DNA from: Desulfobacteraceae bacterium Eth-SRB2
Lineage (GTDB): Bacteria > Desulfobacterota > Desulfobacteria > Desulfobacterales > UBA11574
NCBI GenBank assembly: GCA_004193595.1
Contig: RPGQ01000015.1
Coordinates: forward strand, 62,001-126,000
Direction of reading: 5' to 3'
Length of the DNA: 64,000 bases
Numbering within the stretch: position 1 is the first letter of the stretch; each line of letters opens with the position of its first letter. Shown one piece after another: positions 44,438-62,889 of the stretch. The position numbers and the translations under genes were made by a program. The notes under the pieces are model-generated. The model did not search any database, was not told where the DNA came from, and saw only the letters and a program-made list of their open reading frames with translations.

Positions 44438-44523
44438 GCCGAAGTGGTGGAATTTGGTAGACACGCTATCTTGAGGGGGTAGTGGGTAACCCCGTGCCGG
44501 TTCAAGTCCGGCCTTCGGCACCA
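44438..44523 (+). tRNA. tRNA-Leu (anticodon GAG)
   Basis: 86 nt: acceptor GCCGAAG/CTTCGGC, discriminator A plus encoded CCA, CTATC-TTGAGGG-GGTAG anticodon arm, long variable arm, GGTTCAAGTCC T-loop. Confidence 0.95.
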
Positions 44524-45690
44524 TCACAAAGAATTGGCTGCAATCTTAACAGGTTGCGGCTTTTCTGTTTCTGTAGGGTGCGTATGGGGTGCGTTTGGGT
44601 GCTGAGAGTCTAACAGGTTGACATGCCTGTTCTCATCGGTGCTTATCCATGATCCGTAAACGTCACAAGTGATGCTGATGGAACTATGCCCTGCCTGTTG
44701 ACTGACATAATACGGCGACACTCCGGCGCTGAGAAGATGCGTACAAAAGGCATGCCTAAGCCCATGCAACTTGATTTTCTTAACTTTTGCCTTTTTTAAA
44801 ATACGGAAATATTCACGCCGTATAAAGTTTTGCTCCATGATCTTTCCGTTATTCTGATGCACAAGCTCTGACACTTCCTTGAATCGGCCTTTCAGTTGTG
44901 ATTTTAATACATCCATAAACTGATCTGACATTTCCACTTTTCGGCTTTTACCGTTCTTTGGCCGGGTAAATCGGCCCCGCCTGTAGGATCTTCTTATCCA
45001 GATGAACCCGTTTTCAAGGTCAACGTCTCCCCACTTTAAAGCCAAAAGCTCCCCTAACCTCATACCGGTTCGTGACGCCATAAGGAAAAATGAATAATAC
45101 TGTGGAAAGTCTGATTTACAGGTATCAAGAAACTGATCAAGCTCCTATGTTGTGAAAACATCTTTTTCCGAAACGGTCTTCTTTTTGGCACCGTTCTTAG
45201 GAAACAGTCTTTTTGTAATACCGGAAGTCGGATTTGTTTTGATTATTTCCTCATCAAGCGCATAGTTCAACACCCCGGATATAACATCCTTGATCAACAA
45301 AACTCTTTTTTGGGATAGACCGCCGCTGAATTTTGACAGCAAAAGATCCCGAATGTCTCCCCTGGTAATTGAGTCAATCTTTTCCTTTTTAAATGCCGGC
45401 AACACATGACTACGCAAAACACTCTCGTATTCATCAAAAGTTGATTCTCTGAGATTAATCTTAACATAACCCTCAAGCCACTTTTCAGAATATTCTTTAA
45501 AAATGGGGACCGGCTTTTTTTCTTCAAAACCAAACTCCCCGAGCTGAAGCTTTGCCTCGATCTTACTGGCCACTTCTTGTGCTGCCTTTTTAGATCCTAC
45601 CTTTCTGGATGTTCTTTGCCCGTTATGGGTTACGAATACCCACCATGGCTTCCCCTTACCTTTAGTTTTCTGTCTGACTTTGACACCCAT
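44524..45690 (-). pseudogene. int: Tyrosine recombinase/phage integrase interrupted by one in-frame TAG
   Basis: MGVKVRQKTKGKGKPWWVFV...VSEKDVFTT[TAG]ELDQFLDTC...SRTGMRLGELLALKWGD...LHGLRHAFCTHLL...GHSSISITCDVYGSW; both pieces in the same frame, stop at 45145-45147. Confidence 0.9.
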
Positions 45691-45826
45691 AGTTCCCCTT
45701 CAACTTTCCCCTATTGTATTTAACCCAGGAAGCCGGATAGGATTTCCGGTTTTCGCTGATCAGGCTATCCTGGGCTTTGGTTAATATTCAACGCGCATTC
45801 CCCGAGATCGTCGATTGTAGTGCCTC

Positions 45827-46663
45827 TCAGCGCTTAGTCCGTTTAAAATGCCTCATAGCTGCTCTCAACCTCTTCTCCATTTCAACACGATGGTTCAAAG
45901 AAACAGCATGGTGAGTGATATACCAGGTTAAGATGTTGAAAAATATCCAGAGATTTATAATCGGAAATCCATTATCGGTATAACCTTCTACTTTACGGGC
46001 CGTCCGCTCTTTAATTTCCTTTTTAGCCTTCTTGCCGAATTTCATGGTTCTCATAACATTGGAATAGCTTTTTTCAGTCAGCTTAAGCTCAGTCCATCTT
46101 TTCCATTGATTTGTTTGCAAATTGAACCGATTTAATGCAGTGGATACCTGCTTTTTGATGTCCATCTGTTCAAAATCGAAAACATGCCGTTTCCTGAAAT
46201 GAAGGTACTTCTCACCGACAACCAAGCCATTGGCACAAACAAATCTAAATGCTCCGATAAGTACGATAAAGGGCCATGTGATGTCATAGCTGTTGAACAA
46301 ATGGAGTTCAGGGTTAACCTTATCGCCCTTTTTTATTTCAACAGATTTTTTATAAAAGCGATAAGTTCTGCACATTCTACCGCCATCGTTATAAAACTCC
46401 GTGACGGTTTTATATTTGCCAAGTTCAAGATTCTCATCGATGGTGCTCTCAATCCGTTGAACCGCATCTTCATGCCGTATCAGCTTATAGTCCTTTGAGA
46501 CGATCGAGTACACTTTTCCAATTTCAGGATTTACGATCGCTTTATATTTATCTGCTCGCTGAAGATTTATTTCACCCCAAGAAACTGGAACCTCGCTCAC
46601 TTGTGGAAAGGGTGCTGCTGCTAAGATGCTTTTTTCTTGATCGTCAAAAAGTTCCATCTGCAT
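45827..46663 (-). CDS. DUF932-like phage/plasmid protein
   Basis: YSIVSKDYKLIRHEDAVQRIESTID; FVCANGLVVGEKYLHFRKRH. Confidence 0.7.
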   Translation of the reverse strand: MQMELFDDQEKSILAAAPFPQVSEVPVSWGEINLQRADKYKAIVNPEIGKVYSIVSKDYKLIRHEDAVQRIESTIDENLELGKYKTVTEFYNDGGRMCRTYRFYKKSVEIKKGDKVNPELHLFNSYDITWPFIVLIGAFRFVCANGLVVGEKYLHFRKRHVFDFEQMDIKKQVSTALNRFNLQTNQWKRWTELKLTEKSYSNVMRTMKFGKKAKKEIKERTARKVEGYTDNGFPIINLWIFFNILTWYITHHAVSLNHRVEMEKRLRAAMRHFKRTKR

Positions 46664-46696
46664 TTTATCCCCCTTTCAGATCCCATAAAAAACAAA

Positions 46697-46771
46697 AGCG
46701 CTTGAAGGTTTTCCCCGGCCCACAGTAATAAGCCGCCTATAACGTCACCGTTACAGGTTCCTTCAAGCGCT
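46697..46771. promoter_or_regulatory. Inverted repeat in divergent regulatory region between DUF932 gene and RHH gene
   Basis: Perfect 12-bp AGCGCTTGAAGG (46697-46708) / CCTTCAAGCGCT (46760-46771), with inner TAACG-TCAC-CGTTA. Confidence 0.55.
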
Positions 46772-46899
46772 ATGTTTAATTTAGTTTTCATTTTACTGTG
46801 GTTTTGGCTATATAATACTACATATACATATATATATCATTATAGCAAAAGTCAAGCTTTTTTATTGCAATATATCTTTATGTATTTTATTAAAGCTAC

Positions 46900-47052
46900 A
46901 TGAACAAAAAACAGGTTACATTTCGCATTGACCCGGCCATTATAAAGAAAATAAAATTTCTTGCCGTTGAACAAGATAGATCACTTACCGACCTTTTTTT
47001 AGAAGCAATTCAAGACCTTCTCAAAAAGTACGGGAAAAAGGGCAAGAGATAA
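46900..47052 (+). CDS. Small ribbon-helix-helix-like regulator (50 aa; below the ORF track cutoff)
   Basis: MNKKQVTFRIDPAIIKKIKFLAVEQDRSLTDLFLEAIQDLLKKYGKKGKR, read directly from the sequence. Confidence 0.72.
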   Translation: MNKKQVTFRIDPAIIKKIKFLAVEQDRSLTDLFLEAIQDLLKKYGKKGKR

Positions 47053-47065
47053 GGGCCCCCTTTAT

Positions 47066-47377
47066 ATGACAGAACCTGAAGAAATCACCCTTGGGGACCG
47101 GATAAAATTCGTACGTGGCTCACTTTCAAAAGTCGAATTTGCCAGAGCATTAGGCATTAACAGAAATACACTTCGGCGATGGGAAACCAATAAACTCTTA
47201 CCAAATTTTGAAAGACTTCAGAAAATCCACAAAACATTTAAGGTAAATATTAACTGGCTTCTGTCAGGCGAGGGCAAACCTTATCTCAAACGATTAAAGC
47301 ATCCACCAGATATTGAAAACAGGATTATCAAATTAGAGTCCAGAATAACGGCTTTGGAAAAGAAGGCCAAAAAATAA
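47066..47377 (+). CDS. Helix-turn-helix (Cro/CI-like) transcriptional regulator
   Basis: LGDRIKFVRGSLSKVEFARALGINRNTLRRWETNKLLPNFERLQKI. Confidence 0.85.
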   Translation: MTEPEEITLGDRIKFVRGSLSKVEFARALGINRNTLRRWETNKLLPNFERLQKIHKTFKVNINWLLSGEGKPYLKRLKHPPDIENRIIKLESRITALEKKAKK

Positions 47378-47641
47378 GCTTTAACCGAAAGATTGCCATG
47401 ACCTGAATATCAATATTTAATTCTTACAAAAGAATTGCATGATATCTGTAAGAAGATAGAATTTTGAATACTAGCAAGAAATATCAGGTTTTGAAAAGCC
47501 TGGTTTTTACGGGACACTCTCAATATATCACAACTTGACACCTTCTAAACAAATGGCAATATTCTCAATATAAATGCAGATTAGGTTGGATGCGTTTTGT
47601 AGGATAGCCACATATACCAGTGTGCGTTAGAAGGGACCTCA

Positions 47642-48598
47642 GTGTTTGAACCGAAAAAAACGACGTATGAAATAAACAAATCAAGGGCAATTCCCTCAGT
47701 TTCCTCATCAACTATGCAGAGTCATATTTGGATGATTGTCTTCTCACTAATTATCGCTGGCTCATTTCTTGTATCAGCATCCATTACTATCGGCATTGAT
47801 TCAACTGTATTGACCTTCTGGCGGTTCCTTACCGCGACGACAATTTTTGCACTGATGCTTCCCTTTGTAAATGGTTTCCAATTGCCTGGCTGGCGGGATT
47901 TGGGGCGATACAGCATTGTCGGCGGCAGCTATGGTTTGTTTTTCATATTGATGTTCCAGGCATTAAAAGACACCACCCCTCTGAACACCAGCACCATTTA
48001 CACAATCTTGCCACTATTGACAATGTTGCTGGGGCGTCTGTTAGGTGAAGCGTTACACGTTCGTCAAATGGGAATCCTGGCACTATCTATGGTGGCTACG
48101 ATTTGGGTGATCTTTCGTGGCGATTGGCATCAAATGATAGGTTTGCAGTTTTCTCAGGGAGATATAATTTTTTTTATAGGGACTGGCTGTCTGGCGGTCT
48201 ATATGCAATCTATGAAAAGGCTTCAGCGAAATGAATCCAAGATCTACTTCACCTTTTACAGCCTGCTGATAGCCACAGTGGCGTTGTTAGTCACCGTATT
48301 AGTGCGGACCGAGGCCCTGATTTTTCCCAGTATCCGTGTGTGGCTTGGGATTTTCTATTTGGCAGGTCCTTCAACGGCCGGCACTTTCTGGATTTTACAA
48401 TATACTGCACCCCGATTGGGTCCCAACCGCGTTGTGGCCTACACTTTTCTGACGCCTTCGGCTGTGGCGGGTCTGGAATGGGGATTGGGACTTTCGTCCC
48501 CCGAATGGTCATTGTTACCGGGTATTGGACTAACCCTGGCAGCCGTATGGTTACTTCAACTAGACGTAGTAACAAAAGACCGGCTTGAAAAGTTGTGA
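47642..48598 (+). CDS. EamA/DMT-superfamily transporter (GTG start or later ATG)
   Basis: Ten hydrophobic segments, WRFLTATTIFALMLP, TPLNTSTIYTILPLLTMLLGRLLGE. Confidence 0.83.
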   Translation: MFEPKKTTYEINKSRAIPSVSSSTMQSHIWMIVFSLIIAGSFLVSASITIGIDSTVLTFWRFLTATTIFALMLPFVNGFQLPGWRDLGRYSIVGGSYGLFFILMFQALKDTTPLNTSTIYTILPLLTMLLGRLLGEALHVRQMGILALSMVATIWVIFRGDWHQMIGLQFSQGDIIFFIGTGCLAVYMQSMKRLQRNESKIYFTFYSLLIATVALLVTVLVRTEALIFPSIRVWLGIFYLAGPSTAGTFWILQYTAPRLGPNRVVAYTFLTPSAVAGLEWGLGLSSPEWSLLPGIGLTLAAVWLLQLDVVTKDRLEKL

Positions 48599-49039
48599 TA
48601 TTTTGGATATCTGTAATCAAGCTCAGCTTGTGGTAATCTCAATCTTTCTGCCTATAAATGGGTTCAGAGTTTGTGATATCGAAATCCGTGCGTCTTTTGG
48701 CTGATTTTTTTGCATTTTTGTAAAAAATACGATATATGCAATTTAAGTCGAGTTGCTTTGACCTGTGCTTTTGGCAAGTTATGTTGTTAGTTTAATTATG
48801 TTGTGAGAATTTAATTCTCTTCATATAGTTCTTCTTATCTTATTCTTAATAAAAATTAAAAAATTGTAATAGTTTTTGTGTAATCTACCCCACAATTACA
48901 TAGTTTTTCCTTTTAATTTTCAGACCTATTTTTCACCTAATTTGCATAACCATTTGAGAACACTATATAACTCCAAACCCATCTAAATTTGCATGATTTT
49001 TGCATATAAGGTATATTAATTTAATTTTGTGTTTATCTG

Positions 49040-49115
49040 TCCCAAAAAAAGCCAAACCCCGAGAAATCGGGTGGCGCAAAGTTACGGGTCCAGGTTTAAC
49101 AGGCCGGTTTTCATC
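49040..49115 (+). promoter_or_regulatory. GEMM-like cyclic dinucleotide riboswitch candidate in leader of PEP-CTERM gene
   Basis: GCCAAACC-CCGAGAAATCGG-GTGGCGCAAAGTTACGGGTCC...AACAGGCCGGTT resembles the GEMM-I core (CAAACC, GNRA-type hairpin, CGCAAAG, CGGG, GCCGG). Confidence 0.68.
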
Positions 49116-49164
49116 AAAATGAAAGGTCGTTTGGATTTTTTTTAGTTTAGAAGGAGCAAATTCA

Positions 49165-49563
49165 ATGAAGAAATTATTAGGATTCTTTTGTGTGATATTG
49201 TTGTTTTTTGTTGTAGACGTATCCGCAGGAACAATTGATTTTACAGATTTGAATTACAGTGAGTATAGTTTTGAAGCAAATGGACACGGAGGCGGTTTTA
49301 CTGGTGGTGGACCGCCATTCGGTGGTGGACCGCCAAACTTTATCGGAGGTGGTGGACCGCCATTCGGTGGTGGACCGCCAAACTTTATCGGAGGTGGTGG
49401 ACCGCCATTCGGTGGTGGACCGCCAAACTTTATCGGAGGTGGTGGACCGCCATTCGGTGGTGGTGGACATGGAACTCACGCACCCGAACCAGCCACCATA
49501 TTCCTATTAGGTTCTGGTTTATTTGGTCTTGCTGTTATTGGACGAAAAAGGTTTAAGAAATAG
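49165..49563 (+). CDS. PEP-CTERM sorting-signal protein with Gly/Pro-rich tandem repeats
   Basis: Signal peptide; GGGGPPFGGGPPNFI repeats; C-terminal APEPATIFLLGSGLFGLAVIGRKRFKK. Confidence 0.9.
   Translation: MKKLLGFFCVILLFFVVDVSAGTIDFTDLNYSEYSFEANGHGGGFTGGGPPFGGGPPNFIGGGGPPFGGGPPNFIGGGGPPFGGGPPNFIGGGGPPFGGGGHGTHAPEPATIFLLGSGLFGLAVIGRKRFKK
49303..49466 (+). repeat. 45-bp tandem repeat within PEP-CTERM gene (three full units plus partials)
   Basis: GGAGGTGGTGGACCGCCATTCGGTGGTGGACCGCCAAACTTTATC identical units. Confidence 0.92.
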
Positions 49564-49578
49564 TTGGGCTTGAGCTAC

Positions 49579-49722
49579 ATGTTGCCCGATAAAGGGGGAA
49601 GACGTTCAGGCGTTGAAAGGCGTCAATTCTCATATACTCAACATATTCCTGAACAAAGGTCTGGTAAAGATAGAAGAAGCGGAAACGATATAAGACTAAA
49701 ACCAAGAACATCAAAATCATAA
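49579..49722 (+). CDS. 47-aa RRSGxxRRQ/RSGKDRRSG-motif small protein
   Basis: MLPDKGGRRSGVERRQFSYTQHIPEQRSGKDRRSGNDIRLKPRTSKS read directly. Confidence 0.6.
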   Translation: MLPDKGGRRSGVERRQFSYTQHIPEQRSGKDRRSGNDIRLKPRTSKS

Positions 49723-50005
49723 AAACATTTCAACAGGCAGGGTCATTTGGCTCTGCTTTTTCTATGTCCTGAACCTGTGATTTCTGCTATTTTTATGGAA
49801 GTATCAGGGGCTTAAAATATTTGGGATATCGTTTTTCAGAAAGGGCAAATCTTCAAAAAATGGGATGATTTTGAAGACAGTGAAAAACTTCGATTAGAAA
49901 TCATACTGGAAAAAGTTGAGAAGCTAGTATTAGAATCCGAGAAAATATTGCGGAAGGTGCCTGAGAATAAATTGTAGATAGTGCTATAATTGTTTTTTAA
50001 GTTCT

Positions 50006-50665
50006 ATGCTGATAAACAGAGCCATTTTATACCAGAAAAGACCTTATATCCCTTATGTTGCTCCCTTTGCCCTTTTTGCAATCTGCATCTATGTGGAGCT
50101 ACTCTTTAATATTTCCCAACGCATTATATATCCAATAAAAACCATTTTGACTGCTGCCGCCCTTATTTACTTTTGGAATACCTACAAACAAGAAATAAAA
50201 TTCTCATTTAGCTGGCTGACCGTTATATCCGGAGTTTTTGTCTTTTTTGTATGGGTGCTCCCTGAAGGGTTGTATCCTCAGATCGGACATTCAGAGTTTA
50301 ATCCTTATGAACAAGCAAGCGGCTATGATGTATATTTTTTTATTTCATTCAGGTTGATCGGTGCCACTTTGGTTGTTCCTTTAATGGAAGAGTTATTCTG
50401 GAGATCATTTGCCCTAAGATTTGTCATAAAAACTGACTTTAAATCCTTGCCACTTGGGCAGTTTTCATGGTTCTCTTTCATCTTTATTTCTGTTCTTTTT
50501 GGATTTGAACATCACCGCTGGCTTGTAGGAATTTTAGCAGGAATGGTCTATTCAGGACTTCTCTATCGAAGTAAAAATCTATTCGATCCCATCCTTTCCC
50601 ATGCAATAACAAACTTCTTGCTGGGCATTTATGTTGTCTCAACCCATCACTGGTCTTTCTGGTGA
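50006..50665 (+). CDS. CPBP/CAAX-type intramembrane protease, resembling the PEP-CTERM-associated TIGR03008 group
   Basis: VPLMEELFWRSFALRFVI, FGFEHHRWLVGILAG, DPILSHAITNFLLGIYV; 6-8 TMs. Confidence 0.82.
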   Translation: MLINRAILYQKRPYIPYVAPFALFAICIYVELLFNISQRIIYPIKTILTAAALIYFWNTYKQEIKFSFSWLTVISGVFVFFVWVLPEGLYPQIGHSEFNPYEQASGYDVYFFISFRLIGATLVVPLMEELFWRSFALRFVIKTDFKSLPLGQFSWFSFIFISVLFGFEHHRWLVGILAGMVYSGLLYRSKNLFDPILSHAITNFLLGIYVVSTHHWSFW

Positions 50666-50719
50666 ATGATCAGACTTGTCTATTCTGCTCTCACTAGTCG
50701 CATACTTTATCTGCTTTTT

Positions 50720-50815
50720 AGTATAAGAGGCATAACACCTACCATGCTCCTTTTATGTTCTGGGCTTTTAGGCTTTGGAGTATTTGGGTTAGGGGAACGT
50801 TCGTTCAGAGCGTGC
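50720..50815 (+). pseudogene. Degenerate PEP-CTERM tail remnant
   Basis: ITPTMLLLCSGLLGFGVFGLGERSFRA resembles EPTTMLLLGSGLLGLAGFGRRKFRK; no upstream body. Confidence 0.5.
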
Positions 50816-51516
50816 ATAAAATCTGACAGAATGAAGCATTTATCGATCTGTGTATAGCTGCAATAGAGCAGAAATCTGACCATTCAAAAATATCTTGTGC
50901 CCCATAGACATATCTGAAAAAAGGGCAAAGTGCGGATCACCAATTGAGAACACACGAGTTTGACTTATTTGAATCCGTGAGATACCTCCAACCGAGCTGT
51001 AAGAAACCCTGATTTCAGCTCGCTGCAATATATCTTTTCCCTGGCTAAAAACCGCAATGTTGTGTTTTTAGATATCAAGAAATGCCATTTTTCGGTTAGG
51101 CGTCCTACCCGCCGTAACAGGATGGCGTAACGTAACCCTTCCTTGGGGTTAACACACCATACTTGCTCACACTTCGGGCTGTGAGCTATTGCACCTCATA
51201 TTGAGATTCCAAAGATCATAAAAAGCTTACCTGAAAACAACCTAAAAAATAACCCTTTTCAAGAAAACATAGGCAAAGATACACGGACACCTGGTTTTAA
51301 ATTTAAATCCCTTCTGTGAGCTTCTGCAATCTTCTGTGAACTGTTCTAAGTCTTTTCTGTGTCAATCTATGGTGATGTATTTTAGCCCTCAGTCCCCTCA
51401 TTTGAAATATTAACCCGGTTGCCGCCATGCCGTCGCGCTAAAGTCCGTCATGAAAACGTGCGGCTTTGATTCTCTAAATGTCAGCCCATATCTAATATTC
51501 TTTTCCGTGATTTCAT

Positions 51517-52242
51517 TCATTGGAAATTGTTAACATATTCGTTTTCTTCCTTAATTCGTCTAAAGATATGGTCGCGCTCTTCCCATGCGGCCCGGTCAGC
51601 TCCGGTAAGACCTTTAAGCGAATCCTTTCTTAACGTCTTCCTCCTCGCTGTTGCAATTTCTTCAACAGGGATTTCCTGAAGTTTAAATCCACCAAGAATA
51701 TAACTCAAAGCGTGAAAGGCGTATAATTCATCGGGAGGAACACCCGGTTCGATTTGTCCAATTTGTTTTGCAAGGAGACTATCACGCGGAATCGCTAAAG
51801 CCCCCTCATTGCGCCACTGGCTAAATAGATTTAGACCATGCATGATATCATTTTGATAAAATGCGGGATAAAGCTTGACCCATGCGATTTTTTCCCTAAA
51901 AGCCTTACGAAGATCCATAAAAAAACTGTCTCTCAGATCGCCGGGTGCTGATCTTATCGGTTCCCCGGTATAAATTGTATGATAGAGGAACCTGCTTTCA
52001 TCGTTTTTTATTTTTTCAATTAGTGCCTCCCGCGAATGCTCCGCTTCTTCTTTCAAGAAAACAAGGCTTTCTTCACGTGTTCGCCCCAATAAAAGATAAT
52101 ACCCAGGCCGTCCTTTCAGAACATCAGGGACAATTACACCCCCCCGGATTTCCTGGCAAACAATAGGTTCTTTGTCCTCTATTTCACTTTCTTGGTGTGC
52201 GAGGTATCCATTTATTGACTTTTCTACATGACTGATTTTCAC
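51517..52242 (-). CDS. Phage-type hypothetical protein downstream of terminase
   Basis: Long ORF co-directional with terminase genes. Confidence 0.55.
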   Translation of the reverse strand: MKISHVEKSINGYLAHQESEIEDKEPIVCQEIRGGVIVPDVLKGRPGYYLLLGRTREESLVFLKEEAEHSREALIEKIKNDESRFLYHTIYTGEPIRSAPGDLRDSFFMDLRKAFREKIAWVKLYPAFYQNDIMHGLNLFSQWRNEGALAIPRDSLLAKQIGQIEPGVPPDELYAFHALSYILGGFKLQEIPVEEIATARRKTLRKDSLKGLTGADRAAWEERDHIFRRIKEENEYVNNFQ

Positions 52243-52254
52243 AGCATTATCTCC

Positions 52255-53843
52255 TTATGACGCGTATTCTGGAAACAAAAGATTTGGAGCGTTCTGTCTG
52301 GCCATTGCCTCATAGTTGAATGCATGCCGAAAATGATCCGCACCGAGTTTTACATAAACATAACGTTTTGAACCGGTCTTCTCGTCTTCTTCAAGCTTTT
52401 TTGCTACGTTGTGCATATGCTTTGCAAATTCACGGGTAATTTCACATTCTCTTGGCAGGATAATTGATTGATCCATTATCTCTTTGTGGCTTGCGTCCAG
52501 GCTTTCCGTGCGGTTGCATGAAACAATCAATTCTTTCTCATTCCAGGCATACGATCCCTTTTGATGAATGTTATAATAATTCAGATAAACTTTGCCTCTG
52601 TGTCTCTCAGCAAATGCCCTGGCATTCCGGGTTTCCGGTAAAGCGTCCACCACGCAGCGTGAAACGCTGAAATTTCGCATCAAACGGTCTAACTCTCAAT
52701 CCCTATAGACGCCTATGTGAACGATTTTACCGGCTTTCTGGCCGTGTTTTTTCCCAATCACAACATGAAGATCTTTTCCCTGGTCAACACCCATATAGCA
52801 GGGGCCTAAGTCCTGACTTTCAATGCCATGATCGGCGCATAGAGATAAGACTTCCTGAACACTCAAACGGTTTTCAGCTTCTACATAAGCATTTCCAATT
52901 TTCAAATTATAAAAGTCTGTAAGATTGTCGGTCGTTCTGAACTGGTGCAGGATATCTCCGGGCTCAACATAATGGCTGAATAATTGCGAGTAGTGATAAC
53001 CTCGTTTTTCTGTTATCGATGGTTTCTTGGCACCCATTGGCCAATTGAAGGATTAAGCTCCGAATGGCATTTCTGACAGGCCCGAATGACCTGACCATTA
53101 ACGATCTTAAGACAATCCGGGAAAGTATCTTCAAGGCATGTATATTCGTTGCATTTCTCACATTTTAAAAGCCAGTACCTTTGATCTGTCTCCTGGAAAG
53201 CAGCATCAATGCCGTAATCGGGCAATGTTGGATTAGACAGCTTTAGGATTTCCTTAAACTCACTGTGAGCCATGCGCTCCACAGCCATATCAACGGCATT
53301 TTGCGGCGCCTCATCCAATTCATCCATGATAATAAAATCCACAGGAATACTTTTAAGGCCCACCCGTGATTTCATGCCTCTTAAATAGAGAAAAGCGTTC
53401 CAGATCCGTTTTATGTTAGATGCATCGGTATCCTTCAGCCATTTGCCGATAGTGTCCGGGTTCTCATCAATTAAGGGGTCAATCCGGCCTTTTGAAAAGT
53501 CTGTCACATCGGATTTGCTCGGGAATAGATATAAAATACCTCGATAACCGCCGTACCTGGCGCCATAAGCGACTCGAAGCATTGCTTTTGAGGTAAGCCC
53601 CATCTGAGTAGCTTTCATTTCAACCTGGTGCGGATGGTTGTCTTGATAGGGTTCAAATAAATACTCATGCCGGTCATAGGTAAAGGGTTTACCGTCCAGG
53701 GTGATATCTTTTACCCATTCATGAAAAGGAATAGTATCTTTACCATTTCCTGTTCGCTGATCAATCGAAGTCAGCAGGAAATCGAATATTCCTTCGGCGC
53801 TGAAGCCTTTCCCGAATCCTGCGTTGACATTCCGGCGATTCAT
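52255..53843 (-). pseudogene. Phage terminase large subunit (GpA-like), disrupted by frameshift near 53025 and in-frame TGA near 52696
   Basis: ATQMGLTSKAMLRVAYGARYGG, VDFIIMDELDEAPQNAVDMA, CxxC...CxxC; continues as KKPSITEKRGYHYSQLF and CYMGVDQGKDLHVVIG, then VVDALPETRNARAFAERH. Confidence 0.82.
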
Positions 53844-54264
53844 TACCTATCTCCCCATCAATGATTTTTAAAATTGCGGTCATTTCGCTTATCTGAAACA
53901 ACTTATAACCGATGTCCGCCATGGCACTTATTAATTTGCGCATCTCAGCGGCAAACTTAAGTTTCTGGTCCTGCCATTGCCTATACTCTGAATCATTTTT
54001 AGGCGGAACGGTACTCTCTATCCAGTCAAGCTCAGACTTGGCCTTATCCGCTAAATATAAAAGATGCTCCGTTGCTGCATCCTTACGCTTTTCATAACGA
54101 GGCGCTGCGGAAACCGCTGCTTTCACAACTTCAAGATCCATTTCTTTCAATATTTTCGAAATTGTTCCTTTCCCGCAACCCAGCTCAGAAGCAATCTCGA
54201 CAACCTTTTTTCCTTCATCAAACAGCCCTTTAACCTTGATACGGTCTATTGTTTTTTGTGCCAT
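53761..54264 (-). CDS. Phage HTH/small-terminase-like protein
   Basis: KGLFDEGKKVVEIASELGCGKGTISKILKEMDLE; immediately upstream of and overlapping the large terminase. Confidence 0.65.
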   Translation of the reverse strand: MAQKTIDRIKVKGLFDEGKKVVEIASELGCGKGTISKILKEMDLEVVKAAVSAAPRYEKRKDAATEHLLYLADKAKSELDWIESTVPPKNDSEYRQWQDQKLKFAAEMRKLISAMADIGYKLFQISEMTAILKIIDGEIGNESPECQRRIRERLQRRRNIRFPADFD

Positions 54265-54405
54265 TTTCTATTGGAAACCTTTGGAAACTTTTACGGAAAC
54301 TGTTTCCTATTTTAAACCCCATATACACCCTGCGGAATCTATCCGCTTGAATATATAATATAATTAATCATTTATGATCATTACAATCAAAGGATCTCTT
54401 TGATT

Positions 54406-54669
54406 TCACCCTTTCAGGCTGTCCATAACCACATCCACAATGTTGTCAAGATCCTGGCTTCGGTTGACTCGGTACCGTTCAAGCCATGCGTCAAACTCGG
54501 ATCTCTTAACTAAAATCTTGCCTTTCAATTTGAAATGAGGCATCCCTGTTTTGACATAGTCCCGCAACGATCCCACACTAACAGCAGAATAAGCAGACAA
54601 CCCGCGAAGATCAAAAAACCGATCCTTTAAGGTTATGGTTTTCTCTGCAATGTTATCCGGGATCTGCAA
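54406..54669 (-). CDS. Excisionase/HTH-like DNA-binding protein
   Basis: LRGLSAYSAVSVGSLRDYVKTGMPHFKLKGKILVKRSEFDAWLERYR. Confidence 0.78.
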   Translation of the reverse strand: MQIPDNIAEKTITLKDRFFDLRGLSAYSAVSVGSLRDYVKTGMPHFKLKGKILVKRSEFDAWLERYRVNRSQDLDNIVDVVMDSLKG

Positions 54670-54801
54670 AACTTATAATCTCCGCTTTATCCAGTTTAAG
54701 GGGGGGGGCAGCACCCCTTACCGCTTCTGACGGAAGCCCCCCCATTTCCTAAGTACATAAGGATTCATACAAAAATCTTTGTCCAACGTCGGCGCTAAAA
54801 T

Positions 54802-55005
54802 TTATTCGTCCTCACCTTTACAAATTGCGTTTTCAATATTCTTTAGTGAATCTGAAAGCCGGCTTAAGAAAAATGCAATACTCATGTTGACCCTGTCTTC
54901 ATATTCCACAATTTTAGCAGGATTTTCTTTGTTAAATTCACTATAGAAATCGTTCATATCAGCTATGAAATCGCTAAATTTTCCGGTCAGGTCATAATCA
55001 ATCAT
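54802..55005 (-). CDS. Small hypothetical protein
   Basis: Co-directional 67-aa ORF in the phage block. Confidence 0.45.
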   Translation of the reverse strand: MIDYDLTGKFSDFIADMNDFYSEFNKENPAKIVEYEDRVNMSIAFFLSRLSDSLKNIENAICKGEDE

Positions 55006-55113
55006 GGGTGTTACGTTCTCCTTTCAAAAATTCAGGCCCCGCCACCTAAAAAATTTCCCGTCTCTGGGGCTCGGTCCAGAGGCACGCCACAATTTTTAAT
55101 TAACTCCTAAAAT

Positions 55114-55214
55114 CGGGTGCACTTAATGTGCTGAAACTTTTACTGCACCCGCAAGTGCACCCGAAATATTCTTTAATTTTAAATAGTTGTGCAGTTGGTG
55201 CACTTGGTGTACTT
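55114..55214. repeat. Iteron-like GGTGCACTT repeats including a perfect 12-bp inverted repeat
   Basis: TCGGGTGCACTT (55114-55125), AAGTGCACCCGA (55153-55164), GGTGCACTT-GGTGTACTT (55197-55214). Confidence 0.6.
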
Positions 55215-55379
55215 ATTTTAAGTGTATGTACGGGTAAAGTGAAAAAATGTAATTTTAATAGACTCATATTTTTCATTAATTTAAGGTATACAATAATTAT
55301 TATTGTAATTACAGTATGTTATAAATATTAAAATTTTATGACATGAAAATCTACCCGTAAGCCTATGCCCTATCTGTAC

Positions 55380-57657
55380 CTATGTGGGATCTATCCACAT
55401 TCCTCTTTGATCATTAAAAATTTGGCCCTGATCGTTATACAATTTGCCATTTTCGCACTTTCCCGCATACACCTTCTGATTTAGTGCACCTTCTGCACCC
55501 TGTGCACGTTTACAATCATTACAATTACTTATCGGGTGCACTTCTTTTTTTGTTTTTTCACCTTCTGCACCTTCTGCACCGCCGGGTGCACTTGGGAATT
55601 TATTTGTGCCCGAAGTGAACCCACAAGCGTACCCAGAATCTTTATTGATTTCAGAAGTTTGTGCAGAAGGTGCAGAAGGTGCACTTTTTTTGATGTAGCG
55701 TGCGGATAATTGCAAAAATAGCTTTGGATCAATTTCAAGATATGTCTGGCCATGTGAGCGTAGAGTTTTAAACCCCATACGCTTACATGCCTGGGTGACA
55801 GTCCGTTGTGCCCGGTGAAACTTCTCCGGGATATCCTCGTTTATCTTTTCGGTGATCGTTTTGGAGGGAAGTCTGCAATTTTCAATCTCATACTGCAGGT
55901 CTGTAATAACTTGTAGAATAGTAGCCTCCAGAGTATCTGATAAGGTTTCATAACGCTGATTTTCAATTTCGGAACACAGACTTAAAAAACGCTTCTCCTC
56001 ATTCGGTGCCACCATTAAAATGATCTGCCGTAAAGGGCGGAGGATGTCACCCAGGCGACCACGACACGGCTTTTTTGCTTCCGGGAGTTCAGTTCATGTG
56101 CCTGGCACGCCACGCCACAAGCCTTTCACGGAGCGGGAGAGCATCTTCCGGCTTGACATCATCTTCAAATTGCCGGTTGGATTCCGGCATGATGATTTGA
56201 ATCGCTCTGGTAGCAAGAATTTCAGAGACTTTTTCATTTGTGGCGATAACTGTCGGTCCATAAATGTCAAAATACACTGTGTCTTTATGCGGTCCAAGGT
56301 CGGGATGAAGCACCCGCGGAACAACAGCGCCTTGTTCGAATCTTTGTAACAGAATATCCTCGGTTCCTGTACGTTCGGCCTTCTTCCACAAATCCATAAC
56401 GTCGAAAAACATGGCCGATTTTAGGTTTTGCGCAACCCGGATGATATAGGGATCTCGTAATGATTCGACCGTCAAGCCTCGATATGCAATATTCATTAAT
56501 CCGTGACCAGTCCGGCTTTTGCCTCGCTCTGGGATTGCATAAAACCAAAGATAAGGCGAATATCCCGCCTTTTCGAAGATATATGAGTGAAAAGACCAGC
56601 AGGCTAACAAATGATAATAATCATCAGAGGGAAGTTCCGATATTTGTTTGAGGTAGGTAACAAGGTCATCATATAAACGCCGATCATTATCGGTTTTAAA
56701 ATATTCGGGAACCTTTTCAAGCCTTGGCAAATTCCATTTAAGCGCTTCACGTGGAGGCGGAAATAAATGGTCTTGTCCGTCTGGCCGAGGGAGTTTTGTG
56801 TCCTGGAATAGCTCGTTATTATCCAGAATCAGGAAGCAAATTAGACCATCTTTGTTAATTGCAAGATCGACCAGTTTTTCATGAACGGCTGTATAGTTCT
56901 GCTCCTTCTTCTCTTTTTCATCTGATTCTGCTTTGTCTTTTTTGGAAAGCCACTTTTGGTGCCACTTCTTAACTTTCTTAAAACCTTTATGGGACAGTGT
57001 TATGCGTTCACACTTTTGGAAATCTTCGACACTATACTTAAGCAGGAAGTCATCAAGACCGGTTTTATCCGTACCATTCATATTAGGTAAACAGATGATT
57101 GTAACCTCTGCGCCTCTGAGTTCTAATTCATAACAAAGAGCATACACAGCTTGCAAAAGATCAGGTTTGCTCCATACGTCCGAATCAGGAGTGAAATCAA
57201 CTGGACGACCAAACAGATTAATCATATCCAGATCCTTAATCGGCTTTCCGTCTTGTATCCAGGACCACAACCCACCGAGGCCGATATAATGCAATCCTTC
57301 CTGTAATGCCTTCAGACATTTTTTCTCACCCTCTGTGAACCCAAGTTTTATTGAGGGATCACCAAGAATTTCTTGAACAGCAGGCAGTATGTATAAATGG
57401 GATTTTGAGCCTTTCGGTTGCCCATATTTCATTGAGCCATCATTCGTCTTGACCGCCGGAAAAAACTTTACCCGGAAAAAACCATTGCCATACGGAAAAA
57501 TAAGTCCGGTAGTTTCAACGGGGAGGGAAAAACCAAATTTACAAACGAGATCCTGTGTCTGCATACTGTAAAGCCCGACATTTTTGGCGGTTTCTTCATT
57601 AATTGCGCTTAACTCTAGATCCTTTAGGTATTCATCAAATATTGTTTTTGCTTTCAT
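55380..57657 (-). pseudogene. DUF3854/primase-helicase-like phage protein split by a frameshift near 56085
   Basis: LGFTEGEKKCLKALQEG; DKTGLDDFLL; PERGKSRTGHGL; RLVAWRARHMN stops, while the shifted frame continues ELPEAKKPCRGRLGDILRPLRQIILMVAPNEEKRF. Confidence 0.72.
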
Positions 57658-57673
57658 CCCGATCCCTTTTGCC

Positions 57674-57868
57674 CTACTTCTCTGGATCAATACGCTTAGA
57701 ATCCATAAAATTTTCAAGATCGTTGATCCGATATCTGACCGCTCTCGATAGTTTCAAGTATGCAGGCCCCCTGTGTTGACATCGCCAATTTCTAAGCGTC
57801 TGCACCGCAACCCCTACCAATTGCGCGGCTTCATATTCGTTTATAGGTGGTTTCAAATTTTCTTTCAT
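57674..57868 (-). CDS. AlpA/MerR-like HTH DNA-binding protein
   Basis: INEYEAAQLVGVAVQTLRNWRCQHRGPAYLKLSRAVRYRINDLENFMDS. Confidence 0.85.
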   Translation of the reverse strand: MKENLKPPINEYEAAQLVGVAVQTLRNWRCQHRGPAYLKLSRAVRYRINDLENFMDSKRIDPEK

Positions 57869-58105
57869 TTTTTGTTTTCCCCCGAATTGTTGAATTGTTT
57901 TTTGAGTGCTCTCAATTTAACCCTTTAATATTGCTATGTAAATTCCATTGGATTAGAGAAGACAGTTTTCTTAAGTGTAGACGGGAGTTTTAAAACAAGC
58001 GTAAAGTCTTGATTGAGGGGGGTTTATGATGAGTAAAAAAATAAACTCCCACAAAAGATAAAGACGGGAGTTTAAACTAAAAGAAAAGGTTTTTTGATAA
58101 GGTTT

Positions 58106-58937
58106 TTAGTTTTTAGGTACCTCTATATTTAATTTTTTACAGAAGGCCAACTGTTCTTTTGTGTAATCCTTGCTTCTTATCCCCTTTAGATTTGCTTTAG
58201 GATTTGCTTCTTTAGCCGCTTCAGAAATCCATCCATGAACACATTTAGGTTTATATCTTCTACCAACTATTTTTTATATCGGGATGCATTTTCATATACT
58301 TGATATCTAAAGGAAACTGTTTCCATACCTCTTTTGCAATTTTTTGGACATTGAGTTTGTCTTCTTGATCTGGGCGAAGTTTTCTTTTTGGTTGGATCTG
58401 ATCAATTTTTTTTTGGTAGATAATCCAATATGACCCACCTGTCAATACGCCTTCAGGCAACTGGTCTTCAGACTCACTCTGTTTTAGGCAATACATCCAG
58501 TTTCGGAAATAATCGATACTCGGCGTTTTCCTGTAAACAGTCTTATAAAAACGCGAGTCAAAAAGCCGGTGATGCCCTTGATCTGCATATTGATCGGCAT
58601 GTTTAATTTCCTTTAAAGCGGTAATGAAAGGATCTTCGCCATCAATAGGGTAACTTTCAAGTGGTTCCAAACCAAATTCTTGACAGCCTATATCTACGGC
58701 GTCCGGGTCTTGAACACCTGAATACTCAAAAACCAAAGCATATTGCGTAATAGGACATTCCAAGGAATACCGAACAAGCAACTTTTCTTGATATTCAGAG
58801 TCGAGACTGTGCAAAGTTATTTTTTGGATTTGGATTACTGAATATTTTTCAGCCCATCTCTTGGCATAACGCTCCAACTGATTGAGGTTAAATTCTGGAA
58901 AATCATCGGGATTGTTTTTATGAGGTTGTTGTAACAT
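58106..58937 (-). pseudogene. Hypothetical accessory protein with 3' frameshift
   Basis: MHPDIKNSW stops at 58260, but the +1 frame continues RRYKPKCVHGWISEAAKEANPKANLKGIRSKDYTKEQLAFCKKLNIEVPKN to 58106. Confidence 0.5.
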
Positions 58938-58981
58938 ACGGCGCCTCCTGTAGCGGTAGGTCCTGGTTGAAGATCAGGGGG

Positions 58982-59006
58982 AAGACCGGCCAGGAAAACC
59001 GGTCTT
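58982..59006. terminator. Hairpin AAGACCGG/CCGGTCTT
   Basis: 8-bp inverted repeat followed by T-tract on + strand. Confidence 0.35.
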
Positions 59007-59363
59007 TTCGGCTCCGGTTGCCTATCCCCCGTATATTGTATATATTTTACTTATGGCCACAAAGTATGTCAACGCTTGTTGGTAATTTTCCAAGTGTATG
59101 TTCAATTTGCGGAGAATGAACGAAAATACTCGATATCACAAATCCTGAAGGCCTCTTTCAATTTTCATATAGATTGCAGATAGTACAGGTCTTGGATTGA
59201 TGATTCCAAAGCGTAATCTTAAAGATTTTATGGCTTTAATTTTTCAAGGCCGAAGGCAACAATATGCGCATTTGTTGATTACTGAAATCGTAACAAGCGG
59301 ACATAAAAATGAAAAGGCGGAGCCTATATCAAAGACCCTGCCTTTTACGAACAGGTTTACTCA

Positions 59364-61961
59364 TTACATTCCAGGCAGCGCATCCAACATCATATTATCA
59401 GACGAACCATTAAGCTGAAAACCGACCACTTCTCTACCCGATGAGTAACCAATGTAGGTGGCATTGCTCATATCCTGAGAAAACAGATTTGGCGCCACAT
59501 TCACTACTTTCTCATAAGCAGCGATATTGAGAGATTCAGTTCCGATTACATTGCCACTGTCGTTGTAAGCCGTCATTGTAACCGTAGCCTGAGCGTTCTC
59601 GATATTAACAAAGGCGATTCCTGTCCAGCCATTTTTTTCAGTTTTGGCAAAGACGCCATGATAGCCGCTAATGCCCACACCCGTATACCCCCCTAATTGG
59701 TTTCCGTCGTTGGTGCCGAACAGTTCAAACCCTGTAATCGGGCTTGAGGCGATGATTCTGAACCAAGCGGTTCCCTCGGGGAAATTTAAGTCACGAACCA
59801 CACCAATATATTTTTCTTGCCCGGCAAGGGGAATGGTTTGAGGTGTTAATGATGTGCCGTCTTCGCTGAAAGGGGTAATCGTGAGCGTACAGGATGTTGC
59901 AGAAGGATTATATGCAACAATGCCTGTCCACCAGGTTGAATCGCTTGCAATATGTGGGTAATAGATATGGGTTGTAGTTTCATCCTTTAAAAGGATACCG
60001 CTCAGATAATTATCTCCGCTGCTGTCGGAACTGCCAAATAATTCAAGGCCCACAATGCCGCTTCCATTTTTAATTACCGCAGAGTTAATATTTGGCTGCA
60101 GTTCACCACCAAATAAACTATTGATAGTGAACGCCTGATGTTCTTTAGCCGCGACAGTTATTGGTTTTGTCGTCCCGTTATCAAATTCAACGGTTAATTC
60201 TTTAGATGATGAAGTGGTGTTGAGAAGACTGATTCCGGTCCACCAATTTGTATTGGATGCGATGTGGGAAATGTAGATGTCACCAGCGTTGACATCTGAA
60301 ACGGCTGGAACAGCTACCCGATATTTTCCTTCAATATAAAACTTTGTATATCCACAGACATTTTCTGAATCTGACTCAAAAATAATATATTCAATACCAC
60401 TCGGATTGGGAAGCTCATCGCCAATAACAATCTGTCTTCTTGCATTGGCGGCTAAAATAACCGGTGTTGAAGAAACCTCCTGGCCTAAATCATTATAGGC
60501 TCTCAAATTACCACTCAGACTCTGTACAGCACTGGTATTGATAACACAGATTTCGGTTTCCCATGTGCTGTTACTGGCAATATGGGGGAAGTAGATTAGA
60601 AATGAAAGCGTTTCTTGGGTAACATATTCGTCAGCCCCCATATCATAGCCTGCACCCTGCGGCCGAGAATCACCATCATAATCAACAGCAGGCGCTCCAG
60701 CACTGGTTCCGGTGTCAACGGCAGAGCTGGTACTCAGGAGGTGAAAGTCAAAGTTGGCAGGGTCTACGAAAATCTCCGATATTTCGTGAACAACCACAGA
60801 GTGAGAATCTTGACCACTGTATGCCATCCATGAGCCGGATTCAACATCACTTAGGGAAAACTCATCCTCATATCCCACGGCAATCATCCGCGCGCCAGCG
60901 GCTATGTGAAACAGGTTGTAGTCCCCTTGATATTTGGATGTTCCCATTTGTTCGAAAGCCAATCCGATAGCGTCGCCACCGGCAAGAATACAGTTAACCA
61001 TATACAGGGAGTCAGCTGAGTTTTCCACCCAAACATTAAAGCTGCCAGCATTGATGAAGGTGCAATTTTGCAGCGTCGTCTTACCCGATTCCCCATCCCA
61101 GTCCAGTTCTACATTGGCGACGGAGGCGTTGTAGCCAATACAGTTGACCAGTCTCACATTGTCTTGCCAGATTTTGAAACCTGAGTTATGGCAGTCACGA
61201 GCAGAGCATCGGTTGAGCGTCGTGTTTGCAGAGCTGATGTCAAACCCATCGAATACATCATAGACTTCGCAGCGATTTAAGACAAAATTGTTCTGGGTAC
61301 CGTGACCCAGAGCAAAACCGTCCACGTTCTGAGTTTGATCTCGGCCAGTATGGGCAGCACAGTCGTTGAACGTACCATTATAGCAGTCTGCCCCACCTGC
61401 AGGCGATGCGTCGAAGCCGTAGAGGTCGAAGTGATGCATCTCCACTCGGTTCAGGACGAAATCATGAGTCCCATCCGCGCACCCGATTCCATAGGTGACA
61501 TGGTGAACCTCGCAGTCTGAGATTTCAAGATAACCGGCATTTACAACCCATATTCCGTTATCGTTCCAATTCCGCACTTCAAGGCCTTTAAGCTTGATGT
61601 AGGAGTGTTGGACTATGATTCCGTTGTTGCCAGTGGTGACGCCGGTTCCGTCGATAGCAGGCTTCTCCCCCGGATAGGCAGAAAAGGTTATATAACCCTC
61701 GATGGAGGTGCCACTACGTACGGTGAGGACTTGCTCGTTGTACGTCCCGGCTCTGATATACGTCATATCGCCAGGGAGCATCGTTTGGGCGGCATTATTG
61801 ATCGTTAGCCAAGGCAAATCTTGGGTCCCCGGATTAGCATCACTGGCGGAAGTATGATTATTGTCCACGTAATAAGTTGCTGCCAGGCATGTAGCGGATA
61901 CAAACGTAAAATAGCTAATTACAATGACTAAATAGGTTAGAAAGTACCTCACCTTTTTCAT
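59364..61961 (-). CDS. Secreted right-handed parallel beta-helix protein with four repeated C-terminal modules
   Basis: Start MKKVRYFLTYL with signal peptide; AATYYVDNNHTSASDANPGTQDLPWLTINNAAQTM; repeated HIASNSTWWTGI...GxELFGSSD modules; RBS-like GGAGGG. Confidence 0.85.
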   Translation of the reverse strand: MKKVRYFLTYLVIVISYFTFVSATCLAATYYVDNNHTSASDANPGTQDLPWLTINNAAQTMLPGDMTYIRAGTYNEQVLTVRSGTSIEGYITFSAYPGEKPAIDGTGVTTGNNGIIVQHSYIKLKGLEVRNWNDNGIWVVNAGYLEISDCEVHHVTYGIGCADGTHDFVLNRVEMHHFDLYGFDASPAGGADCYNGTFNDCAAHTGRDQTQNVDGFALGHGTQNNFVLNRCEVYDVFDGFDISSANTTLNRCSARDCHNSGFKIWQDNVRLVNCIGYNASVANVELDWDGESGKTTLQNCTFINAGSFNVWVENSADSLYMVNCILAGGDAIGLAFEQMGTSKYQGDYNLFHIAAGARMIAVGYEDEFSLSDVESGSWMAYSGQDSHSVVVHEISEIFVDPANFDFHLLSTSSAVDTGTSAGAPAVDYDGDSRPQGAGYDMGADEYVTQETLSFLIYFPHIASNSTWETEICVINTSAVQSLSGNLRAYNDLGQEVSSTPVILAANARRQIVIGDELPNPSGIEYIIFESDSENVCGYTKFYIEGKYRVAVPAVSDVNAGDIYISHIASNTNWWTGISLLNTTSSSKELTVEFDNGTTKPITVAAKEHQAFTINSLFGGELQPNINSAVIKNGSGIVGLELFGSSDSSGDNYLSGILLKDETTTHIYYPHIASDSTWWTGIVAYNPSATSCTLTITPFSEDGTSLTPQTIPLAGQEKYIGVVRDLNFPEGTAWFRIIASSPITGFELFGTNDGNQLGGYTGVGISGYHGVFAKTEKNGWTGIAFVNIENAQATVTMTAYNDSGNVIGTESLNIAAYEKVVNVAPNLFSQDMSNATYIGYSSGREVVGFQLNGSSDNMMLDALPGM

Positions 61962-62714
61962 TTTGCCCTCCACTAATTGATAAGATTTCCCTTTTTGAAA
62001 TTGGAATAATGGAAAATTTGAAATTTTATGCCAAAACCGGAAGAATCCCAATCTGAAGTAGGGCCGGATATCAGACAACAAAGAGACTTCTGAAACCCGT
62101 TACCGGAATTTTGTACCAGATGCCAGCCCGTATTGTCATTGATATGGTATATCCCAACAGTACTGTAATCATACTGTCAGGAACAGGGCATGCACATTTT
62201 GAGGGGTTTCTCCATGATAGTAACCTCCTGGAAAGAACTTGAACAGTTGAAGTAACAAATCATCATAAAGGAAGAAACAGATCAAGAATGAGATCAGCTA
62301 AACAATCAATTTTTCAAAATGCAAATAGAGTCGAAGCAGAGGATAGGTTCAAAAGGTGATACGTTAAAACCAATTATATTAAAACTTTAATAGTGTCAAC
62401 AAAATTAGAATTTTATAAATATATATCACTTTATAGTATTTATTTGCCCTATGAATCGGTAGAAAAGAGAGATACTATATCTTGGAATATCTTGCCAAAA
62501 GCACAGCATTATGCAGTAACATTTTTTGTACATATATCCTATTTTTTACAAAATTGCAAAAAAAGAAAAAGGGCCATGGTGGATACCACAACCCTTAATT
62601 TTGGGGTGCACATAGGGTGCATTTGACCTTTACGATTTATTATGATTTATTATGATTCATTAAACGCAAGCCCTCTATAACCACACAACTAATTGTTTTA
62701 ACTATATATTATAT

Positions 62715-62736
62715 TCAAATCCGGTCTTCGGCACCA
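62715..62736. other. attR: duplicated tRNA-Leu 3' end
   Basis: TCAAATCCGGTCTTCGGCACCA. Confidence 0.88.
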
Positions 62737-62889
62737 CAATTTATATATTAAAACAGGCGCTTAAAAGATACATTAAGTGCCTGTTTTGCGTATAAGATGT
62801 GTATCTGGGGTTTGTTATTTTTCGCTTCTTCCCTTATTTCACCAAATCCAATATCCCCTTCCCTCCTGCGGAAATATGGCGACCGAATT

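Follow-up and report, generated by a model that had tools for sequence, protein, structure and literature searches.

The DNA considered here is a 64-kb window of contig RPGQ01000015.1 from Desulfobacteraceae bacterium Eth-SRB2 (a metagenome-assembled genome, or MAG, of 5.26 Mb), and all coordinates are positions in that window. At a tRNA-Leu(GAG) gene there lies an element in which, reading from the tRNA, one meets genes for a tyrosine integrase (int), a DUF932 protein, a ribbon-helix-helix-like (RHH-like) regulator, a cI-like repressor, a DMT transporter, a PEP-CTERM protein, a pepcterm_CAAX protein, a protein here called X, the large terminase subunit TerL, a TerS-like protein and an HTH_17 protein, followed by a small open reading frame (ORF), a 211-aa ORF, a DUF3854 protein, an AlpA/Xis-like protein, a 225-aa ORF and a beta-helix protein, and finally the right-hand attachment site, attR (Table 1). 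An initial annotation of this DNA had named an integrase adjacent to the left-hand site attL, a terminase, a primase, an excisionase-like gene and DMT, PEP-CTERM, CAAX and beta-helix genes, and had seen no portal, capsid or tail genes. All of the genes named could be found (the transporter as EamA, the CAAX gene as NCBIfam TIGR03008, the primase as DUF3854, the excisionase-like gene as HTH_17), with two amendments: int is interrupted by an in-frame TAG codon, and what had been called a terminase is really TerS plus a TerL broken into three pieces, whereas the TerL genes of relatives are intact single ORFs. The absence noted was borne out, in that Pfam and PHROG scans of the element proteins gave no match to portal, capsid or tail families; nor did the Pfam matches include the relaxase or type IV secretion genes that an ICE or mobilisable island would carry.

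The evidence that this is an inserted element comes from its two ends. The last 23 nt of the tRNA gene, TTCAAGTCCGGCCTTCGGCACCA, recur at the far end as TTCAAATCCGGTCTTCGGCACCA, with 21 of the 23 positions identical, so that the repeat first described as bracketing 18.2 kb is real, but with a core of 23 rather than 22 nt. When TTCAARTCCGGYCTTCGGCACCA was searched for with up to two mismatches through the whole genome, matches were found solely at 44501-44523 and 62714-62736 (the chance expectation for such a two-core match being, by our own estimate, ~4e-4), and not at the many positions that the initial annotation had named as a sign against insertion. The empty sites that it had proposed looking for exist in three congeners (G001, G002 and G006), where the same tRNA, preceded by the same upstream genes, is followed directly by CACAATTTATATATT...AGGCGCTTA...TAAGTGCCTGTTTT or a near variant; this ~80-bp sequence, in which the terminator hairpin of the tRNA lies, is the DNA found after 62736 in the window, at 79-88% identity. 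Because the congener tRNA joins directly the DNA that follows the 62.7-kb copy, 44524-62736 is an insertion, spanning 18.2 kb, and a site-specific insertion, and hence the existence of an element, is demonstrated by these alignments. The hairpin past attR looks like the native terminator of tRNA-Leu, while just 3' of the tRNA the element supplies a hairpin of its own, which is common to the element of a fourth congener, G003. Pairs of GGGTGC 3-8 nt apart on the forward strand occur in the window only beside the two att cores, which is consistent with their being arm sites of the integrase.

Table 1 Features of the element and its insertion site (positions in the 64-kb window).
Feature	Position	Strand	Remarks
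tRNA-Leu(GAG)	44438-44523	+	ARAGORN
attL core (tRNA-Leu(GAG) 3' end)	44501..44523	+	ARAGORN, pattern search
Tyrosine integrase (int)	44524..45690	-	broken by in-frame TAG at 45145-45147
Terminator-like hairpin from element	44535..44566	+	just 3' of tRNA; GCTGCAA..TTGCGGC-TTTTC; fold -21.9 kcal/mol over 77 nt
GGGTGC x3 direct repeats, attL side	44576..44602	+	candidate arm-type integrase sites
int-alpA RNA (RF02996), copy 1	45709..45775	-	47.6 bits; ends ~19 nt before int start codon
DUF932 / phage-plasmid-like protein	45827..46663	-	TIGR03299-like
RHH-like regulator	46900..47052	+	50 aa; family assigned by eye
cI-like HTH repressor	47066..47377	+	
DMT (EamA) transporter	47642..48598	+	cargo
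Dispersed intergenic repeat	48642..48782	+	downstream edge of DMT block
PEP-CTERM protein, Gly-rich	49165..49563	+	cargo
CAAX protease-related protein (pepcterm_CAAX)	50006..50665	+	cargo; TIGR03008
Protein X	51517..52242	-	predicted RNase H-like fold; 3' of TerL
TerL (GpA / phrog_675), pseudogene	52255..53843	-	frameshift near 53013-53037, TGA at 52696-52698
TerS-like HTH protein	53761..54264	-	
HTH_17 protein	54406..54669	-	5' of TerL in L040, L125 too
211-aa protein	55380..56015	-	family not recognised
DUF3854 protein	56089..57717	-	primase-helicase-like
AlpA/excisionase-like HTH_17 protein	57674..57868	-	
225-aa protein	58260..58937	-	homologues 3' of int-alpA RNA in G011 (L175), G061 (L176)
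int-alpA RNA, copy 2	58961..59032	-	33.5 bits, below gathering score; E 3.7e-4 (5.8-kb search)
Secreted beta-helix protein	59364..62081	-	cargo
Dispersed intergenic repeat, further copy	62487-62564	-	
GGGTGC direct repeats, attR side	62604..62620	+	candidate arm-type sites
attR core	62714-62736	+	pattern search; apparent displaced tRNA-Leu terminator hairpin after it, ~62750-62790

The integrase of G003, at the same tRNA, is intact (388 aa) and 85% identical to that of the window. Readthrough of the TAG codon as pyrrolysine was considered and rejected: nothing in the genome exceeds the curated cut-off for PylS, so the codon should act as a stop. Small genes comparable to that of the RHH-like regulator sit between X and int in two related loci, L161 and L163.

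Both int and the 225-aa ORF are preceded by a copy of the int-alpA RNA. The first exceeds the gathering threshold of RF02996 (47.6 against 35.8 bits), while the second, ending 24 nt before the 225-aa gene, was predicted from relatives in which the RNA stands before homologues of that ORF, and was then found by a targeted search. The same family occurs upstream of the G003 integrase (L021 1477-2660), where two inserted genes, for proteins of 179 and 118 aa, lie between RNA and int, whereas in the window the RNA directly precedes int. For the RF02996 matches in related genomes an ORF starts 12-38 nt downstream in 17 of 20 cases, as against 24% of random positions, although a fair count would be ~15 of 19, since the placement of L093 was wrong and is dropped, and L102 (a short ORF with a TTG start) is weak. 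Given that ORF starts follow the RNA at such short distance, the data favour a 5' leader over a free small RNA (sRNA), and the RNA is apparently the 5' leader of int and of the AlpA operon, an arrangement consistent with its coupling excision to replication. Both window copies match the family and have int and the AlpA operon as neighbours; Rfam lists RF02996 as an sRNA gene, whereas the copies here precede start codons by short intervals of similar length, as expected of a leader, and a role for this RNA thereby becomes testable.

In the case of the packaging genes, the small terminase subunit TerS was assigned by its position and by homology to L040/L123. Protein X, whose gene comes after that of TerL in satellites and also in certain phages, is 38% identical to its counterpart in L052 (E 2e-33), and its AlphaFold model (pLDDT 74, pTM 0.69) resembles terminase nuclease domains and RuvC-like resolvases, so that it is predicted to adopt an RNase H fold. 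An alignment of nine X sequences, which is too divergent for pattern searching of viral contigs, contains just four invariant residues (P39, P46, L74 and A178); as none of these is acidic, X probably lacks nuclease activity, and it may serve instead as an accessory partner of the packaging motor.

Relatives were sought mainly through TerL. Its first piece retrieved 15 IMG/VR contigs at 54-84% identity, and a TerL alignment retrieved 46 viral contigs, 8 of 390 other genomes of the class and 9 genome contigs, including Desulfobacterales, Desulfobacteraceae and other deltaproteobacterial MAGs; with the DUF3854 primase as query, no relatives were found in 59 related genomes, nor, using patterns, in genome or viral contigs. 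The TerL relatives are of two kinds, namely portal-bearing phage contigs (L030, L032, L034, L036-L039, L132, L145, L154) and portal-free loci that have an integrase together with TerL and X (L041, L052/L159, L056/L164, L161, L163), which L028 also resembles, its contig ending inside X. In a TerL tree the window sequence falls nearest to the portal-free loci (weak support). Among these, L041 holds a partial tRNA at one end, int, an HTH gene, DnaB, a TerS-like HTH gene, TerL and X within 8.3 kb, and L056/L164 runs from int to X in ~10 kb, with host-like genes past int. L161 and L163 share the window's order TerS-TerL-X-cargo-int-tRNA, with the end of int 32-40 bp away from a tRNA-Ala and a tRNA-Phe; the cargo of L161 consists of three genes whose N-termini look lipoprotein-like by eye, and that of L163 (5007-8159, in the slot between X and int) is a CAP12/Pycsar TIR protein and an HD protein, which are candidate defence genes. 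No att repeats were found at the ends of L028, L041, L052, L161, L163 or L164, these contigs being too short or lacking their ends.

Two further relatives are delimited more fully. L178 (in genome G365) occupies 11.5 kb between exact 23-bp repeats at a tRNA-Phe (224 and 11732) and encodes a primase-helicase, TerS (phrog_51) and int, with no TerL recognised. L175 (6661-19656, in G011, of the host's own family) passes from host-like DNA through int, int-alpA RNA, a homologue of the 225-aa ORF, AlpA and a primase-helicase to TerS, with TerL cut down to a short ORF that at its beginning looks TerL-like by eye; after 12,597 bp the start of the unit appears once more, matching at 399/399 nt as far as the contig goes, which makes this a tandem copy or a circular form. 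Capsid genes were not recognised in either.

Within the cargo of the window element, the DMT block (47518-48643) matches, at 99.7% identity along 1126 bp, contig 26 of G012, a genome of another genus whose tpiA-side housekeeping region is only 75% identical to that of the host; barring MAG contamination, this contrast implies recent transfer. A locus of G006 shares 96% identity with the CAAX block (49842-50864); the gene there, its product 96% identical at the aa level, has no element genes seen nearby, and orthologues of 79-82% protein identity occur in other genera. The C-terminal half of the beta-helix protein (~residues 490-905) is 70-90% identical in several large proteins of the same genome (contigs 1, 36 and 60). 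Real though the cargo is, it is thus a mosaic, in which genes of the host lineage (pepcterm_CAAX, beta-helix) stand beside a recently exchanged DMT gene, rather than a conserved exported-protein system; of the "exported-protein cargo set" originally proposed, the genes remain but the grouping is partly coincidental. No PADLOC match to defence genes was obtained for the five window-element proteins tested. A dispersed repeat of ~80-140 bp, with core TTTTTGCAWTTTTGTAAVAAATANGATATATG and ending near GGCAAG, is present in six copies in the genome, with more in G006, G012 and G017, and borders the DMT block in the window and the CAAX block in G006. Integron cassettes were considered on account of this bordering, but were rejected, as no attC-like ends could be seen by eye.

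Putting these observations together, the 18.2-kb stretch is probably a phage satellite that entered tRNA-Leu(GAG) and has since decayed. The initial annotation had left satellite, decayed prophage and phage-derived island side by side; of these the satellite is best supported, with decay now added; the empty sites, with the related int at the same tRNA, answer the check that it had set. A satellite is preferred to a one-off decayed prophage because in relatives, sought as had been suggested, int, TerS-TerL, X and the replication genes are all preserved intact and capsid genes are lacking, while the present copy, its int and TerL being broken, can probably move only with help in trans. It is nonetheless conceivable, if rather unlikely, that this is the remnant of an ordinary temperate phage that lost its portal, capsid and tail genes after integration, with early and terminase genes decaying amid accreted host genes: int and TerL are indeed pseudogenes, host-lineage genes lie where structural genes would sit, and portal-bearing phages of 51-63 kb have this TerL and X too. 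Against such a history, several separate genomes show the portal-free layout with TerL, X and int intact (L056, L161, L163, L041, L052), and there are related complete units of 11.5-12.6 kb without recognised capsid genes. A tycheposon-like, tRNA-anchored island spread by its integrase mainly for the sake of cargo, the terminase being a fossil of phage origin, would account for the non-phage cargo, for a DMT gene 99.7% identical across genera and for the broken TerL, but seems highly improbable, given that replication, regulatory and packaging genes are kept in relatives whose cargo differs, and that the cargo blocks, occurring outside such elements in other genomes, need not travel with the element.

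It must be remembered that several points weigh against a satellite. The window TerS matches no PHROG or Pfam family; phages and satellites do not form exclusive clades in the TerL tree, and L036-L038, L145 and L154 are full-size phages with the same TerL and X. In addition, since most relatives are contig fragments, the lack of capsid genes is only partly demonstrated, and the two for which both ends are seen, L178 and L175, have TerS without a recognisable TerL.

If the satellite interpretation is followed through, infection by a helper phage would switch on the int and AlpA operons, each behind its int-alpA leader; Int and AlpA would then excise the element, the primase-helicase would drive its replication, TerS-TerL-X would dock on the helper portal and package satellite DNA into helper heads, and the packaged DNA would enter a new host and integrate at its tRNA. 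Use of a helper, packaging and control by the RNA are steps that we infer. The slot between X and int takes up cargo, in the form of host-lineage and recently exchanged genes here and of lipoprotein-like or CAP12/Pycsar-type TIR genes elsewhere. More tentatively, and with somewhat less confidence than doubt, a family of capsid-less satellites may exist in the Desulfobacterota, having a complete terminase of its own (TerS, TerL and an accessory X of RNase H fold without conserved acidic residues), int and AlpA-replication operons under joint control of the int-alpA leader, and cargo shuttled through the X-int slot. If so, the orphan int-alpA RNA family would gain a role in satellite induction.

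A literature search returned no paper linking "phage satellite" with "Desulfobacter". Of the traits generally looked for in satellites, two are present, namely att repeats with the element's own integrase (broken here), and regulation and replication genes without structural genes, and the third, mobilisation by a helper phage, is presumed. P4-like satellites have psu/delta/sid-type genes and an alpha primase, for none of which did the window element give a Pfam or PHROG match. Gram-negative phage-inducible chromosomal islands (PICI) comprise int, an AlpA-type regulator, a replication gene and TerS in 10-15 kb, without capsid genes, and all these traits, size apart, are shared by the window element; PICI, however, have no TerL of their own and redirect that of the helper, whereas here there is a TerL (broken, but intact in relatives) with an adjacent protein of predicted RNase H fold, and no capsid-remodelling gene was recognised in the window element. 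Capsid-forming PICI (cf-PICI) likewise encode both terminase subunits, but also capsid, portal and connector genes, whereas no capsid, portal or head-tail genes were found here. Tycheposons, from marine picocyanobacteria, have a tRNA-targeted tyrosine integrase, exchangeable cargo and links to phage packaging; all three are shared, the likeness being one of description only. They are among the proposed satellite families (PMC11389934). PICMI, whose insertion site in Vibrionaceae lies beside fis and whose published account is silent on terminase in its text, have in common with the window element an int, AlpA and primase core and no capsid remodelling (PMC10803314). They differ in that the window element sits in tRNA-Leu rather than beside fis, is larger and has TerS-TerL. 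Most known satellites either rely on the large terminase of their helper or carry an entire head module of their own, and a satellite with a whole motor but no head would represent an intermediate strategy.

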